A DNA stretch of 64,000 nt from Actinoplanes octamycinicus (GTDB lineage Bacteria > Actinomycetota > Actinomycetes > Mycobacteriales > Micromonosporaceae), in assembly GCF_014205225.1 (NCBI RefSeq), contig NZ_JACHNB010000001.1, positions 9,219,501-9,283,500 on the forward strand, read 5' to 3'. The position numbers and the translations under genes were made by a program. Below are positions 53,827 to 58,672 of this stretch, in pieces (position 1 is the first letter of the stretch; each line of letters begins with the position of its first letter). Below the pieces are notes generated by a model that was not told the DNA's origin, did no database searches, and saw only the letters and a list, made by a program, of their open reading frames with translations.

Positions 53827-53984
53827 GTGGACCCCCGTGTCGCGATTCGACCTGATCCTCGTGTCTGGTGTGCCCGGTCCCGGCCGCGCCACCGGGGCTG
53901 GACGTCCCTGACCGCCTGAGCGTTTCTCGGCGGCCGGGCCGGCGCACGTCCCCCGACCGATCCGCATCGAAAGAACGAACCATC

Positions 53985-55895
<1,911 letters not shown>

Positions 55896-56526: not shown

Positions 56527-56599
56527 TGGTCGCAGACCCCGGTGTCGATCCGGGCGAACCACCCTTATGAGGGGCGGGCGGGCAGCCGGCCCGTCTGCG
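56527..56599 (-). tRNA. tRNA-Met-like (CAT), atypical, CCA encoded
   Basis: Acceptor arms CGCAGAC and GTCTGCG pair perfectly, A73 and an encoded CCA follow. The anticodon loop is CTCATAA. The D-region is only about 16 nt with a 5-nt loop and lacks the G18-G19 pair; T-loop position 54 is A, not T. Either a non-canonical tRNA or a decayed one with an intact acceptor. Confidence 0.55.
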
Positions 56600-56605
56600 G
56601 CGACC

Positions 56606-56621
56606 CCACAGTGGATGACAC
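56606..56621 (+). repeat. 16-bp inverted repeat, left copy (tRNA array)
   Basis: CCACAGTGGATGACAC in the 29-nt gap between the CAT tRNA and tRNA-Arg(CCG). The identical sequence occurs on the minus strand at 58213-58228. Confidence 0.75.
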
Positions 56622-56628
56622 CCGCACG

Positions 56629-56701
56629 CGCCCCCGGCTGGACTCGAACCAGCGACCCCGGCGCTCGGAACGCCGTGCTCTCTCCGCTGAGCTACGAAGG
56701 C
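56629..56701 (-). tRNA. tRNA-Arg (CCG)
   Basis: Loop TTCCGAG, anticodon CCG. Acceptor GCCTTCG/CGGGGGC with two G-T pairs, G73, T-arm GCTGG-TTCGAGT-CCAGC. No CCA encoded. Confidence 0.88.
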
Positions 56702-56711
56702 ATGGTTCCCG

Positions 56712-56796
56712 CGGAGGAGGTGGGATTCGAACCCACGGGACCCTTCCGGGCCCACGCCGATTCCAGCGGCGTTTCCGAAGCCAGGCCGGCTCCTCC
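56712..56796 (-). tRNA. tRNA-Ser (GGA)
   Basis: Class II tRNA with a long variable arm. Acceptor GGAGGAG/CTCCTCC, anticodon loop CTGGAAT (stem CGCCG/CGGCG), T-arm GTGGG-TTCGAAT-CCCAC, G73. No CCA. Confidence 0.9.
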
Positions 56797-56809
56797 CGAC
56801 GTACACAAG

Positions 56810-56884
56810 CAGCGCGGACGGGATTCGAACCCGCACATGCCCTGGGTGAAAACCAGGTGACTCTCCCTCTTCGTCCACCGCGCC
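56810..56884 (-). tRNA. tRNA-Glu (TTC)
   Basis: Anticodon loop TTTTCAC in stem CCTGG/CCAGG. Acceptor GGCGCGG/CCGCGCT with G1-T72, G73. D-arm stem is short (GAC/GTC). Confidence 0.87.
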
Positions 56885-56889
56885 ATGCG

Positions 56890-56961
56890 TGCCCCGAGCT
56901 GGTGTCGAACCAGCGACTTCCGCCCTGTGACGGCGGCGCTCTCCCGCTGAGCTACCGGGGC
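56890..56961 (-). tRNA. tRNA-Val (CAC)
   Basis: Anticodon loop GTCACAG in stem CCGCC/GGCGG. Acceptor GCCCCGG/TCGGGGC, A73. Its first base directly abuts the CCA of the upstream tRNA-Met: zero spacer. Confidence 0.9.
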
Positions 56962-57040
56962 TGGGAGCAGGGGTGGGATGCGAACCCACGACTTCCGGCT
57001 CATGAGGCCGGCGAGGACGACCGAACTCGTCCACCCTGCG
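56962..57040 (-). tRNA. tRNA-Met (CAT), initiator-like 1-72 mismatch, CCA encoded
   Basis: Anticodon loop CTCATGA in stem CCGGC/GCCGG. C1 faces T72 without pairing, as initiator tRNAs have an unpaired 1-72 end, but the anticodon stem lacks the three G-C pairs of a true initiator. Position 73 is C, followed by CCA. Confidence 0.8.
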
Positions 57041-57042
57041 AG

Positions 57043-57115
57043 TACGCCGCCGGGGACTCGAACCCCGAACCCGCTGATCAAGAGTCAGCTGCTCTACCCG
57101 TTGAGCCAGCGGCGC
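57043..57115 (-). tRNA. tRNA-Lys (CTT)
   Basis: Anticodon loop CTCTTGA in stem GCTGA/TCAGC. Acceptor GCGCCGC/GCGGCGT, A73, T-arm CGGGG-TTCGAGT-CCCCG. Two bases separate it from tRNA-Met. Confidence 0.92.
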
Positions 57116-57118
57116 ATG

Positions 57119-57207
57119 AGGAGACGGCGGGAGTCGAACCCGCACGAGACATCACTGCCTCCACCCGCTTTCGAGGCGGCGGCCGGCGCCGATCGGCTGG
57201 CGTCTCC
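57119..57207 (-). tRNA. tRNA-Ser (CGA)
   Basis: Class II with a long variable arm. Acceptor GGAGACG/CGTCTCC, anticodon loop CTCGAAA, T-arm GCGGG-TTCGACT-CCCGC. Discriminator is T instead of the usual serine G73; pair 27-43 is G-G. Confidence 0.85.
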
Positions 57208-57213
57208 ACAGTG

Positions 57214-57287
57214 TCGGGTCGACCGGATTCGAACCGGCGGCCTCTCGCTCCCGAAGCGAGCGCGCTACCAAGCTGCGCCACGACCCG
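57214..57287 (-). tRNA. tRNA-Pro (CGG)
   Basis: Anticodon loop TTCGGGA in stem CTCGC/GCGAG. Acceptor CGGGTCG/CGACCCG, A73. D-arm TGGCGCAGCTTGGTAGCGC is typical of actinobacterial tRNA-Pro. Confidence 0.92.
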
Positions 57288-57300
57288 TTCTTTCGCTACG

Positions 57301-57375
57301 TCGGGATGGCGGGATTCGAACCCACGACCCCCGGCACCCAAGGCCGGTGCGCTGACCAAGCTGCGCCACATCCCG
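57301..57375 (-). tRNA. tRNA-Pro (TGG)
   Basis: Anticodon loop CTTGGGT in stem CCGGC/GCCGG. Acceptor CGGGATG/CATCCCG, A73. D-arm almost the same as the other tRNA-Pro. Confidence 0.92.
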
Positions 57376-57376
57376 C

Positions 57377-57470
57377 TGGCGGAGAGTGAGAGATTCGAAC
57401 TCTCGGTGAAGGATCATTCCCCCACTACGGATTAGCAATCCGCCGCCTTAGGCCACTCGGCCAACTCTCC
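57377..57470 (-). tRNA. tRNA-Ser (GCT), CCA encoded
   Basis: Class II with a long variable arm. Acceptor GGAGAGT/ACTCTCC, anticodon loop TTGCTAA, T-arm GAGAG-TTCGAAT-CTCTC, G73 and CCA (57379-57377). One base from tRNA-Pro(TGG). Confidence 0.92.
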
Positions 57471-57474
57471 TCCG

Positions 57475-57546
57475 CGCCCTGTACCGGGATCGAACCGGCG
57501 ACCTCGCGCTCGACAGGCGCTTGCTCTACCACTGAGCTAACAAGGC
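57475..57546 (-). tRNA. tRNA-Asp (GTC)
   Basis: Anticodon loop CTGTCGA, acceptor GCCTTGT/ACAGGGC with one G-T pair, G73, T-arm GCCGG-TTCGATC-CCGGT. Confidence 0.9.
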
Positions 57547-57550
57547 AGGG

Positions 57551-57625
57551 TGGACCCGGCCGGATTCGAACCGGCCACCTCCGCTGTGCGAGAGCGGCGC
57601 TCTACCAGAAATGAGCTACGAGCCC
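57551..57625 (-). tRNA. tRNA-Ala (CGC)
   Basis: Anticodon loop CTCGCAC in stem CCGCT/AGCGG. Acceptor GGGCTCG/CGGGTCC has the G3-T70 pair that marks alanine, A73. The D-loop is unusually long (TCATTTCTGGTA). Confidence 0.88.
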
Positions 57626-57641
57626 GTGACAAGAACTGTCG

Positions 57642-57715
57642 TACCCGGAGCGCGATTCGAACGCGCACTGCCACCGTTCTGAGCGGTGTGCCTCCTGCCG
57701 TTGGGCTACCCGGGC
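57642..57715 (-). tRNA. tRNA with CAG (Leu) anticodon but class I short variable loop
   Basis: Anticodon loop CTCAGAA in stem CACCG/CGGTG, variable region only GCAGT (5 nt), T-arm GCGCG-TTCGAAT-CGCGC, acceptor GCCCGGG/TCCGGGT, A73. CAG reads the Leu codon CTG, but bacterial tRNA-Leu has a long variable arm. Which amino acid it carries is open. Confidence 0.75.
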
Positions 57716-57731
57716 ATGGTGCGGTGTTTCG

Positions 57732-57805
57732 CTGCGAGCGGAGGATTCGAACCTCCAACCTTCCGGTTCAGAGCCGGACGTGCTGCCAGATTGCACCAGC
57801 TCGCA
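57732..57805 (-). tRNA. tRNA-Gln (CTG)
   Basis: Anticodon loop CTCTGAA in stem TCCGG/CCGGA. Acceptor TGCGAGC/GCTCGCA, G73, T-arm GGAGG-TTCGAAT-CCTCC. The T1-A72 pair fits glutamine tRNAs. Confidence 0.92.
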
Positions 57806-57820
57806 TCGTTTCTCACGAAG

Positions 57821-57893
57821 AGTGGTCACCGGGATTCGAACCCGGGGCCTCCGCCATGGCGAGGCGGCGCTCTGCCAACTGAGCTACGACCAC
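57821..57893 (-). tRNA. tRNA-Gly (GCC) with C33
   Basis: Anticodon loop TCGCCAT in stem CCGCC/GGCGG, so position 33 is C instead of the near-universal T. Acceptor GTGGTCG/TGACCAC, T73, T-arm CCGGG-TTCGAAT-CCCGG. Confidence 0.8.
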
Positions 57894-57898
57894 GTGCG

Positions 57899-57973
57899 TC
57901 GCCCGTCCGGGGGTCGAACCCGGTCTTCCGGAGTGAGAGTCCGGTGGTCTGACCTTCCGCAACCTCACGGGCG
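57899..57973 (-). tRNA. tRNA-Glu (CTC)
   Basis: Anticodon loop CTCTCAC in stem CCGGA/TCCGG. Acceptor CGCCCGT/ACGGGCG, A73, T-arm CCGGG-TTCGACC-CCCGG. Confidence 0.87.
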
Positions 57974-57987
57974 ATGACCTCACTGCG

Positions 57988-58060
57988 CGTCCCCGGAGAG
58001 ATTCGAACTCCCGACACCCGGATCCGTAATCCGGTGCTCTATCCGCTGAGCTACGGAGAC
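57988..58060 (-). tRNA. tRNA-Arg (ACG)
   Basis: Anticodon loop TTACGGA in stem CCGGA/TCCGG. Acceptor GTCTCCG/CGGGGAC with one T-G pair, G73. A34 would need editing to inosine. Confidence 0.92.
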
Positions 58061-58077
58061 CTGACCTGCATGGAGCG

Positions 58078-58151
58078 TGGACCTGGGCGGATTCGAACCG
58101 CCGACCCCCGGTCTGCCGAACCGGTGCGCTACCGGACTGCGCTACAAGCCC
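58078..58151 (-). tRNA. tRNA-Ala (GGC) with C33
   Basis: Stem CCGGT/ACCGG holds loop TCGGCAG, giving anticodon GGC with C33. Acceptor GGGCTTG/CAGGTCC has the alanine G3-T70 pair and A73. D-arm TAGCGCAGTCCGGTAGCGC looks like a tRNA-Pro D-arm. A 9-nt loop reading Pro CGG is a less likely alternative. Confidence 0.75.
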
Positions 58152-58153
58152 AT

Positions 58154-58200
58154 TGTTCCGCCCGGCCGCCGGCGGCGATGCTGCCGGCGGCCGGGACAAG
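58154..58200. terminator. Hairpin between tRNA-Trp and the other 19 tRNAs
   Basis: CCCGGCCGCCGGC (58161-58173) and GCCGGCGGCCGGG (58182-58194) pair over 13 bp, flanked by TTGT and ACAA. No T-run follows; it may separate the tRNA-Trp transcript or serve as a processing signal. Confidence 0.55.
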
Positions 58201-58212
58201 TGATGATGATGT

Positions 58213-58228
58213 GTGTCATCCACTGTGG
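58213..58228 (-). repeat. 16-bp inverted repeat, right copy (tRNA array)
   Basis: On the minus strand this is CCACAGTGGATGACAC, identical to 56606-56621. It lies in the 122-nt gap next to tRNA-Trp. A perfect -35 hexamer TTGACA is just upstream on the same strand (58237-58232), without a clear -10, so an internal promoter is possible. Confidence 0.7.
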
Positions 58229-58273
58229 AGTTGTCAAGGAGCACGATCGCCGGTGGAAAGCCGGGATCAGACG

Positions 58274-58345
58274 CACGGGCAGCAGGATTCGAACCCGCAT
58301 CTAACAGATTTGGAATCTGTCGCTCTGCCGTTGAGCTACACCCGC
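58274..58345 (-). tRNA. tRNA-Trp (CCA)
   Basis: Anticodon loop TTCCAAA in stem ACAGA/TCTGT. Acceptor GCGGGTG/TGCCCGT, G73, T-arm GCGGG-TTCGAAT-CCTGC. First gene of the array, 20 nt behind an intrinsic terminator. Confidence 0.92.
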
Positions 58346-58365: not shown

Positions 58366-58401
58366 AAAGAAAAACCGCCCGGTCCCGGATCGGGAGGGCG
58401 G
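58366..58401 (-). terminator. Strong intrinsic terminator between the leader ORF and the tRNA array
   Basis: Read on the minus strand: CCGCCC (58401-58396) pairs with GGGCGG (58380-58375), extended by TCCCG/CGGGA, then TTTTTCTTT (58374-58366). It is 23 nt past the leader stop and 20 nt before tRNA-Trp. Confidence 0.88.
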
Positions 58402-58423
58402 CTGATCGACGCTAGCTGGATTG

Positions 58424-58573
58424 CTAGCCTCGCCACCACTCCGGATCACGCTTCGACTCACTGGGAAGCGGAAGATCCATGATCAGGGCTGCCTGGGGAC
58501 GACCGGAGCGCGCCGGAGCGCTCGCACCGCGCAGCATTTCTCGCTGCGACATGCTGGCAATCGGCCACCGCAT
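58424..58573 (-). CDS. 49-codon leader ORF ending in Trp-Trp-Arg-Gly
   Basis: ATG 58573 has GGGGTG upstream and follows a good promoter by about 65 nt. The product begins MRWPIASMSQREMLRGASAP and ends EWWRG, with consecutive Trp codons at 58438-58433. The ORF stops 23 nt before an intrinsic terminator, and tRNA-Trp follows. That arrangement recalls attenuation leaders, though 49 codons is long for one. It may instead be an ordinary small protein of unknown function with its own terminator. Confidence 0.5.
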   Translation of the reverse strand: MRWPIASMSQREMLRGASAPARSGRPQAALIMDLPLPSESKRDPEWWRG

Positions 58574-58643
58574 GATCGTTTCACCCCTTCCCTGATCGGT
58601 CCGGCTCCGGCCTCTCGGCCCGTCCGGCTCGCTGTTGAAGCAC

Positions 58644-58672
58644 ACAGTATTCGCGGCCCCGGGGACCGGCAA
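58644..58672 (-). promoter_or_regulatory. Sigma-70-type promoter of the leader ORF (and possibly the tRNA array)
   Basis: -35 TTGCCG (58672-58667), 17-bp spacer, -10 TACTGT (58649-58644), matching TAnnnT. No comparable promoter fits in the 20 nt between the terminator and tRNA-Trp. Confidence 0.55.

Follow-up and report, generated by a model that had tools for sequence, protein, structure and literature searches.

The window analyzed here is a 64,000-nucleotide (nt) stretch of the Actinoplanes octamycinicus genome (NZ_JACHNB010000001.1, positions 9,219,501 to 9,283,500), and our subject is a dense array of tRNA genes within it, together with a short leader that lies upstream and appears to spell out the content of the array in its codons. 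ARAGORN places exactly 20 tRNA genes on the minus strand between positions 56527 and 58345, all within 1.82 kb. By this high number and density, the genes qualify as a tRNA array unit in the general sense of the term. These calls bear out the original prediction, which had read from the letters 20 genes on one strand, 13 amino acids with Phe, Tyr, Ile, Thr, His, Asn and Cys absent, and a predominance of anticodons with C34 (12 of 20 by our count, among 19 distinct anticodons). The tight packing it described also holds, with its spacers of 0 to 30 nt and one of 122 nt now measured as 0 to 28 nt and a single one of 121 nt.

The first gene, tRNA-Trp(CCA) (58273–58345), directly follows a terminator-like sequence. 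After it come 18 tRNA genes (56628–58151) in the order Ala-GGC, Arg-ACG, Glu-CTC, Gly-GCC, Gln-CTG, Leu-CAG, Ala-CGC, Asp-GTC, Ser-GCT, Pro-TGG, Pro-CGG, Ser-CGA, Lys-CTT, Met-CAT, Val-CAC, Glu-TTC, Ser-GGA and Arg-CCG; these 18 are enclosed by a long stem described below. A tRNA-Met(CAT)-like gene outside the stem (56527–56599) ends the array. It has an odd T loop, ATCGACA, and a similar gene closes the arrays of several relatives. Sixteen of the 20 genes reach the gathering score of the Rfam tRNA model; this terminal Met gene, Ser-GGA, Ser-CGA and Glu-CTC fall below it.

Upstream of tRNA-Trp, the same strand carries a series of elements with the apparent anatomy of a ribosome-mediated attenuator. 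A putative promoter (58644–58672) can be read as TTGCCG (58672–58667) and TACTGT (58649–58644) separated by 17 nt, and a Shine-Dalgarno-like AAGGGG (58584–58589) stands ahead of a leader open reading frame (ORF) of 49 codons plus stop, MRWPIASMSQREMLRGASAPARSGRPQAALIMDLPLPSESKRDPEWWRG (58424–58573), which is supported by a rule-based call, its codon match and a frame control. The last leader codons contain GGTGGCG (58431–58437), the candidate 5′ arm of an antiterminator, whose partner GCCGCC lies at 58402–58397; this assignment draws on RNAfold, pair counts in 35 sequences and pairing probabilities. The stop codon, TAG at 58426–58424, sits inside a hairpin, GCTAGC-AATCCA-GCTAGC (58411–58428), identified by alignment and pair counts. 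An intrinsic-terminator-like sequence, GCCGCCCTCCCGATCCGGGACCGGGCGG (58366–58402), called by rule and backed by pair counts, is followed by a T run. An alignment of eight similar loci, designated type A, conserves the promoter-like boxes, the Shine-Dalgarno sequence, the ORF, the GCTAGC stop-codon hairpin and the GC-rich terminator with its T run, all before the first tRNA gene. The ORF has 49 codons in these loci (53 in L083) and ends in WRG, WRS or WRR.

The array region has BLAST matches in all 67 genomes of the genus, of which the weaker may be single tRNAs. Around the better matches we examined 40 regions, none longer than 19.5 kb; together with the window they make up a first set of 41 loci. 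The 40 stretches hold 5 to 24 tRNA genes each (ARAGORN); their content varies, and by eye the order is largely common within types. We defined a leader as an ATG-initiated ORF with a Shine-Dalgarno sequence that ends 5 to 32 nt ahead of a terminator. By this rule, a short ORF with a ribosome-binding site precedes an intrinsic terminator in 40 of the 41 loci. The exception is L110/G032, in which the script called no terminator and a leader is visible by eye. At another locus, L092, two consecutive leader and terminator units, or tandem attenuators, can be seen by eye before the first tRNA.

The A. octamycinicus genome contains a second, smaller example. A mini-array of Leu-GAG, Tyr-GTA and Cys-GCA (locus L037, genome positions 8951798–8952090) has its own leader, MLCTCLYLAPDRWRG, and its own terminator. 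As a side observation, the tRNA-Leu genes of both arrays (CAG at 57641–57715 in the window and GAG in L037) are 75 nt long with a short variable arm, as compared with 84 to 85 nt for the standard tRNA-Leu genes of this genome; a lone Leu-CAA at genome position 3751365 is likewise short (77 nt).

The codons of the leader correspond to the tRNAs that it precedes. In its 43-codon core, the window leader has codons for 18 of the 19 array anticodons, the exception being Val-CAC. The array reads 36 of these codons, and its amino acids account for 41 of the 43 residues, with Ile at the other two. Compared with random codons drawn from the genes of the window, the probability of such a match is about 0.02 for coverage, 0.01 for the decoded fraction and 0.003 for the residues; coverage and decoded fraction together give about 0.001, and about 5e-5 for the mini-array. 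On its own, the window locus is only moderately surprising, and the strength of the case lies in the family of loci.

To score the family, we compared leader and array amino acids cell by cell, excluding the start and the last five residues of each leader, and permuted the leaders among loci 20,000 times. Across 40 loci of the first set, 649 of 800 locus-by-amino-acid cells agree, compared with 493±14 after permutation, and none of the permutations reached the observed value. The agreement persists among 22 leaders that are less than 40% alike (357 of 440 cells; 267±11 permuted). It also extends below the level of the amino acid: a leader's own array can read 68.7% of its codons (51% permuted; 0 of 20,000), and, given the amino acid, a matching codon is present for 429 of 463 array anticodons (0.927 versus 0.862 permuted; 0 of 20,000). 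The signal is specific to the frame, with a z score of 11.2 in the true frame versus 1.1 to 3.5 in the other five, and 120 nt of upstream DNA from 22 loci gave −0.4 to 2.6. Regulatory codons thus correspond to what the operon supplies. In L096, the leader MSAKRMWQAVPSSPARGLSRLPARWRS, without its start and last five residues, uses the 11 amino acids that its array of 15 tRNAs covers and no others, and in L102 Ala and Pro are absent from leader and array alike.

The correspondence holds in loci outside the first set. We built a covariance model of the attenuator tail from 35 training sequences, including the window and the mini-array and containing no tRNA sequence. Within the A. octamycinicus genome, a single contig of 10.28 Mb, it has two confident matches, the window array (E 2.9e-13) and the mini-array, and the next has an E value of 0.37. 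There is no third site, and because both sites were in the training set, this is not an independent find. Elsewhere, the model matches 182 of 300 genomes in the family Micromonosporaceae, spread over 24 of 44 genera and including 65 of the 67 from the genus (E up to 1e-3). At the level of the order it matches 40 of 397 genomes, four of them from another family (E up to 1e-4), and in a sample of the class 3 of 394, all from the family of the window genome. Three loci of the other family have a leader ORF, its start placed by eye, and then 6 to 14 tRNAs within the stretch examined. A separate pattern for the leader end found 11 matching stretches in a named genome collection, all from Actinoplanes or Paractinoplanes, with very near relatives possibly left out.

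From the model matches listed, we chose by hand 80 held-out regions, 40 from the same genus and 40 from other genera. A same-strand tRNA gene lies within 1.5 kb downstream in 77 of them, at least three tRNA genes are found in 69, and seven are of the same kind as the three-gene mini-array. Removing 11 regions with fewer than three tRNAs and 15 more that had no rule-called ATG leader left 54 for the test. Altogether, 17 held-out regions lack an ATG leader under the rule: L164 has an ATG ORF with an unaccepted Shine-Dalgarno sequence, and for the others inspection by eye suggests a GTG start. In the 54 loci, 780 of 1080 cells agree (545±21 permuted; 0 of 20,000), as do 450 of 620 for 31 leaders unlike one another and unlike the first set (313±16; 0 of 20,000). 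Leaders range from 13 to 65 residues in length. The leader of L215, MITTRRVTVVPTPRPHTIPVIRPTGRWRG, precedes an array of Pro, Thr, Ile, Arg, Pro, Val and His, and at L217 a 31-gene array and its leader, VLQYASTETTRFMPRGGVVLPSIGRAHDLCASEQNWKPGWRRE (GTG start by eye), each use all 20 amino acids.

An attenuator of this kind needs two competing folds, and RNAfold predicts them in the window. The conserved GGTGGCG, within the final codons of the leader, pairs with GCCGCC in the 5′ arm of the terminator and encloses the GCTAGC hairpin. With the tail free, the calculated probability of the terminator is 0.06; with a ribosome placed at the stop codon, it is 1.00. The same placement brings the terminator above 0.5 in all 35 attenuators modeled, and the antiterminator exceeds 0.5 in 27 of 35 when the polymerase has just made the 5′ arm. 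Counting changes on both sides of a pair, we found 30 such cells in the terminator and hairpin, compared with 10±3 after shuffling, a value that none of 500 shuffles reached. From these models, a switch between folds is well supported in the window and plausible across the family.

Past the terminator, the transcript takes on features of an rRNA precursor. Between tRNA-Trp and tRNA-Ala lies an rRNA-leader-like element, TGCTCCTTGACAACTCCACAGTGGATGACACA (58212–58243, minus strand), which consists of a boxA-like start and the 5′ half of a stem (58228–58213). The 3′ half, GTGTCATCCACTGTGG (56606–56621, minus strand), is its 16-nt perfect complement and follows tRNA-Arg(CCG), with counterparts in relatives. 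A helix of leader and trailer around mature RNAs, as in rRNA operons, is therefore present in the window. Just ahead of tRNA-Ala(GGC) is a GC-rich hairpin (58161–58195, minus strand), with paired changes in relatives by eye. All five rRNA leaders of the genome read TTGTTCTTTGAGAACTCAACAGGGTGCTT, have their complement after the 16S gene and resemble the array element; it is this likeness that makes the start a candidate boxA, the type of site bound by NusB and S10. The pattern of the 5′ element matches 29 of the 41 array loci. Of the 41, 14 have a complement (9 nt or longer) close to or at the end of the array, and the pattern finds none in the other 27. Stem changes in relatives are compensatory (for example, GTGG/CCAC to GCGG/CCGC). 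We considered transposon ends as a source of the inverted repeat and rejected them, as the halves change together in relatives and the layout matches that of the host rRNA leaders. Together, these elements suggest rRNA-like antitermination and RNase III-type processing of the array transcript. A similar rRNA-like element, TTTGAGAACTACACAGTGG, also occurs before the first tRNA found in a stretch of a Mycobacterium avium plasmid (L267, NZ_CP076860.1).

The array adds no amino acid that the genome lacks elsewhere. ARAGORN, run on stretches around the other tRNA hits of the genome, finds tRNAs for all 20 amino acids outside the array, which is therefore a redundant second set. The original prediction had reasoned that anticodons without other copies, together with constitutive expression, would make this simply the ordinary tRNA cluster of the species; each of the 19 distinct array anticodons has at least one further copy elsewhere. 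The array tRNAs are only 62% to 87% identical to the standard isoacceptors, and some of their anticodon loops deviate, such as those of Lys, Met and Asp with G instead of A at position 37. These loop differences would fit resistance to tRNA cleavage, without demonstrating it.

We consider it highly probable that the array is a backup tRNA operon under ribosome-mediated transcription attenuation, with the leader peptide serving as an inventory of the cargo. The parts and how they are conserved, the frame-specific correspondence of leader and cargo, and the competing folds in the window are all read from sequence; from them we infer the direction of the switch, the expression of the array and its trigger. 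RNA polymerase would start upstream, with a ribosome trailing behind it along the 49 leader codons. As long as the cargo tRNAs are at hand, this ribosome would reach the stop codon and cover GGTGGCG, the terminator would form and the array would stay off. If one of these tRNAs is scarce, the ribosome would stall at its codon, leaving GGTGGCG to pair with the terminator 5′ arm, and read-through would yield the spare tRNAs. The read-through transcript would resemble an rRNA precursor, with a boxA-like site for processive antitermination and a stem around 18 of the 20 tRNAs for RNase III-type processing. Such a design would favor the original suggestion of a specialized or stress-time module, insofar as the set is redundant and the attenuator anatomy points to conditional use. 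The original prediction did not include the leader, the terminator, the rRNA-like stem or the mini-array, and its suggestion now has a concrete candidate switch.

Several observations weigh against this interpretation. The control frames and upstream DNA have a small positive score (z up to 3.5), which probably reflects shared ancestry between loci. Among the 1080 cells of the 54 held-out loci, 240 are leader-only versus 21 array-only, so that the match is one of coverage and not of identity; some leader-only cells may reflect lost or undetected tRNAs. Of the 15 arrays with Val-CAC, only 4 have a codon for it in their leader, the window array not among them, and in the 54-locus set 11 of 32 cases lack Met. 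A comparison of 22 independent pairs of close leaders was uninformative, with 5 concordant changes set against 2 discordant ones (p 0.45). As for the folds, when no part of the tail is covered, 16 of 35 attenuators still give the terminator a probability above 0.5, and only 14 do so for the antiterminator in the register tested. Pairs with changes on both sides number seven, a value reached in 58 of 500 shuffles. The antiterminator pairs are conserved with nearly invariant arms in the 35 sequences, and because the arms hardly vary, covariation says little about them.

We give an even chance to the trigger being a loss of tRNA, for example through tRNA-cleaving toxins or defense nucleases, rather than amino-acid starvation; we prefer it because a starved cell would gain nothing from additional uncharged tRNA. 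A leader that instead detects uncharged tRNA, with the extra tRNAs acting as a signal or sink (for example for the stringent response), has precedent in the attenuators of biosynthesis operons, which sense charged tRNA, and in those predicted before actinobacterial trp operons, trpS and leuS within a published survey (PMC1262725). However, the match between leader and cargo reaches the level of the anticodon, which points to feedback on tRNA supply, and leaders with up to 20 amino acids would indicate no single pathway. We regard a starvation sensor as possible, though doubtful.

The surroundings of the array bear on its origin. To its left, the original prediction had noted an EF-G paralog as part of a conceivable module. 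The gene is real and adjacent (53868–55895), but it lies on the plus strand, convergent with the array, and scores above the NCBIfam cut-off for elongation factor G; we therefore rejected it as a member of the operon. It is present in 16 of the 40 stretches from relatives and was not seen in the other 24, so the arrays are not all in one place. MFS and TetR genes to the right recur at 84% identity or more in 7 of 40. Many arrays, though not all, thus appear to occupy a common old chromosomal place. In the interval from about 40.6 to 63.1 kb, a selection of neighboring ORFs was compared with Pfam; some had no match, and none of those that did is a mobility gene. Separately, long gaps recur inside the arrays of relatives, of about 520 to 570 nt in L080, L092, L099 and L100 and about 900 nt in L084, L089 and L091, and these are possible internal genes or broken tRNAs.

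The array could also be a domesticated anti-defense tRNA array from a phage or plasmid, with conditional control a secondary addition. Mycobacterium arrays, plasmids included, are termed a putative antidefense system in the text of one report (PMC12803027), and both the rRNA-like element of the M. avium plasmid array and the scattered positions implied by the EF-G gene agree with such a descent. The partly common flanks within the genus speak against it, as does a search for phage and plasmid DNA similarity, in which no record had one place covering 80% of the array and the matches listed covered at most 11% of the query. We judge this history improbable as a replacement for an attenuated backup operon. 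It is compatible with one, because origin and present function are separate questions.

An ordinary growth-related cluster, raising the tRNA dose for common codons downstream of an unrelated terminator hairpin, would account for the C34 anticodons, which suit the G-ending codons of a GC-rich genome, and for the promoter-like and rRNA-like elements. It is very unlikely, given that every array anticodon and all 20 amino acids are covered elsewhere, that a leader and terminator precede 40 of 41 arrays with a cargo match in the true frame, and that array tRNAs diverge so far from standard isoacceptors. That the product is instead the leader peptide, a bioactive small protein with the tRNAs as read-through cargo, is scarcely credible: the small ORF is conserved and its end, in most cases (R/W)WR(S/G), hardly changes, but this end coincides with the antiterminator arm of the RNA, the rest varies with the array and lengths run from 13 to 65 residues.

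Ribosome-mediated attenuators are familiar from the trp and his operons of Escherichia coli. An attenuated backup operon would share with known attenuators the leader ORF, the choice between terminator and antiterminator and the regulatory codons matching what the operon supplies. In the known cases the leader responds to a single amino acid or a small number of them, and the genes under control encode enzymes or a tRNA synthetase, whereas here up to 20 amino acids would be sensed and tRNA genes controlled. To our knowledge, this would be the first attenuator to control tRNA genes and to monitor many amino acids at once. In actinobacteria, attenuators predicted in the 2005 survey include those of trp, trpS, leuS and ilvB, and its main text does not contain the phrase "tRNA gene" (PMC1262725). 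By title or the start of the abstract, no report among the open-licence PubMed Central matches listed connects leader peptides or attenuation with arrays, clusters or operons of tRNA genes.

The best functional analog is another long redundant tRNA operon, the trn operon of Anabaena. According to the text of PMC10272220, it comprises 26 tRNAs on a megaplasmid, is silent in normal growth and is induced by translational stress via relief of repression by TrcR. Control there is exerted by a ribbon-helix-helix repressor at the promoter, whereas the candidate switch here is a cis-acting translated leader; words in leader- or attenuat- do not occur in the main text of that paper. In Mycobacterium, the tRNA array units found on chromosomes, on plasmids and in phages, as portrayed in PMC5966550 and PMC12803027, are likewise dense with many tRNA genes, and one, on the M. 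avium plasmid, has the same rRNA-like element. The main texts of both papers lack words in promoter-, leader- or attenuat-, and inspection by eye of the 700 nt ahead of the plasmid array's first tRNA revealed no RWRS-type leader. In rRNA operon leaders, including those of the host, a boxA-like sequence also stands beside a long stem that encloses mature RNAs, in the account given in PMC10250234, but the stem here encloses tRNAs without an rRNA gene. Spare tRNAs with changed anticodon loops are also described for phages that evade anticodon nucleases (PMC10264068), and some loops of the array differ in a comparable way; unlike the phage genes, the array is chromosomal and lies behind a leader and terminator.

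In the texts of PMC5966550 and PMC12803027, the role of large redundant tRNA arrays is called unknown, not clearly understood or putatively antidefense. The leaders declare the purpose of each array in their codons, which makes the question testable. In the broadest form of our proposal, on which we are evenly divided, the leader would be a cis-acting sensor of the tRNA inventory: a short peptide would list the spare set, up to 20 amino acids in 43 residues, and any listed loss would switch the whole set on. Such circuits, several per genome and of different scope, would offer a general immunity against tRNA-cleaving toxins and defense nucleases. If this is true, these bacteria possess a natural sensor for tRNA damage.

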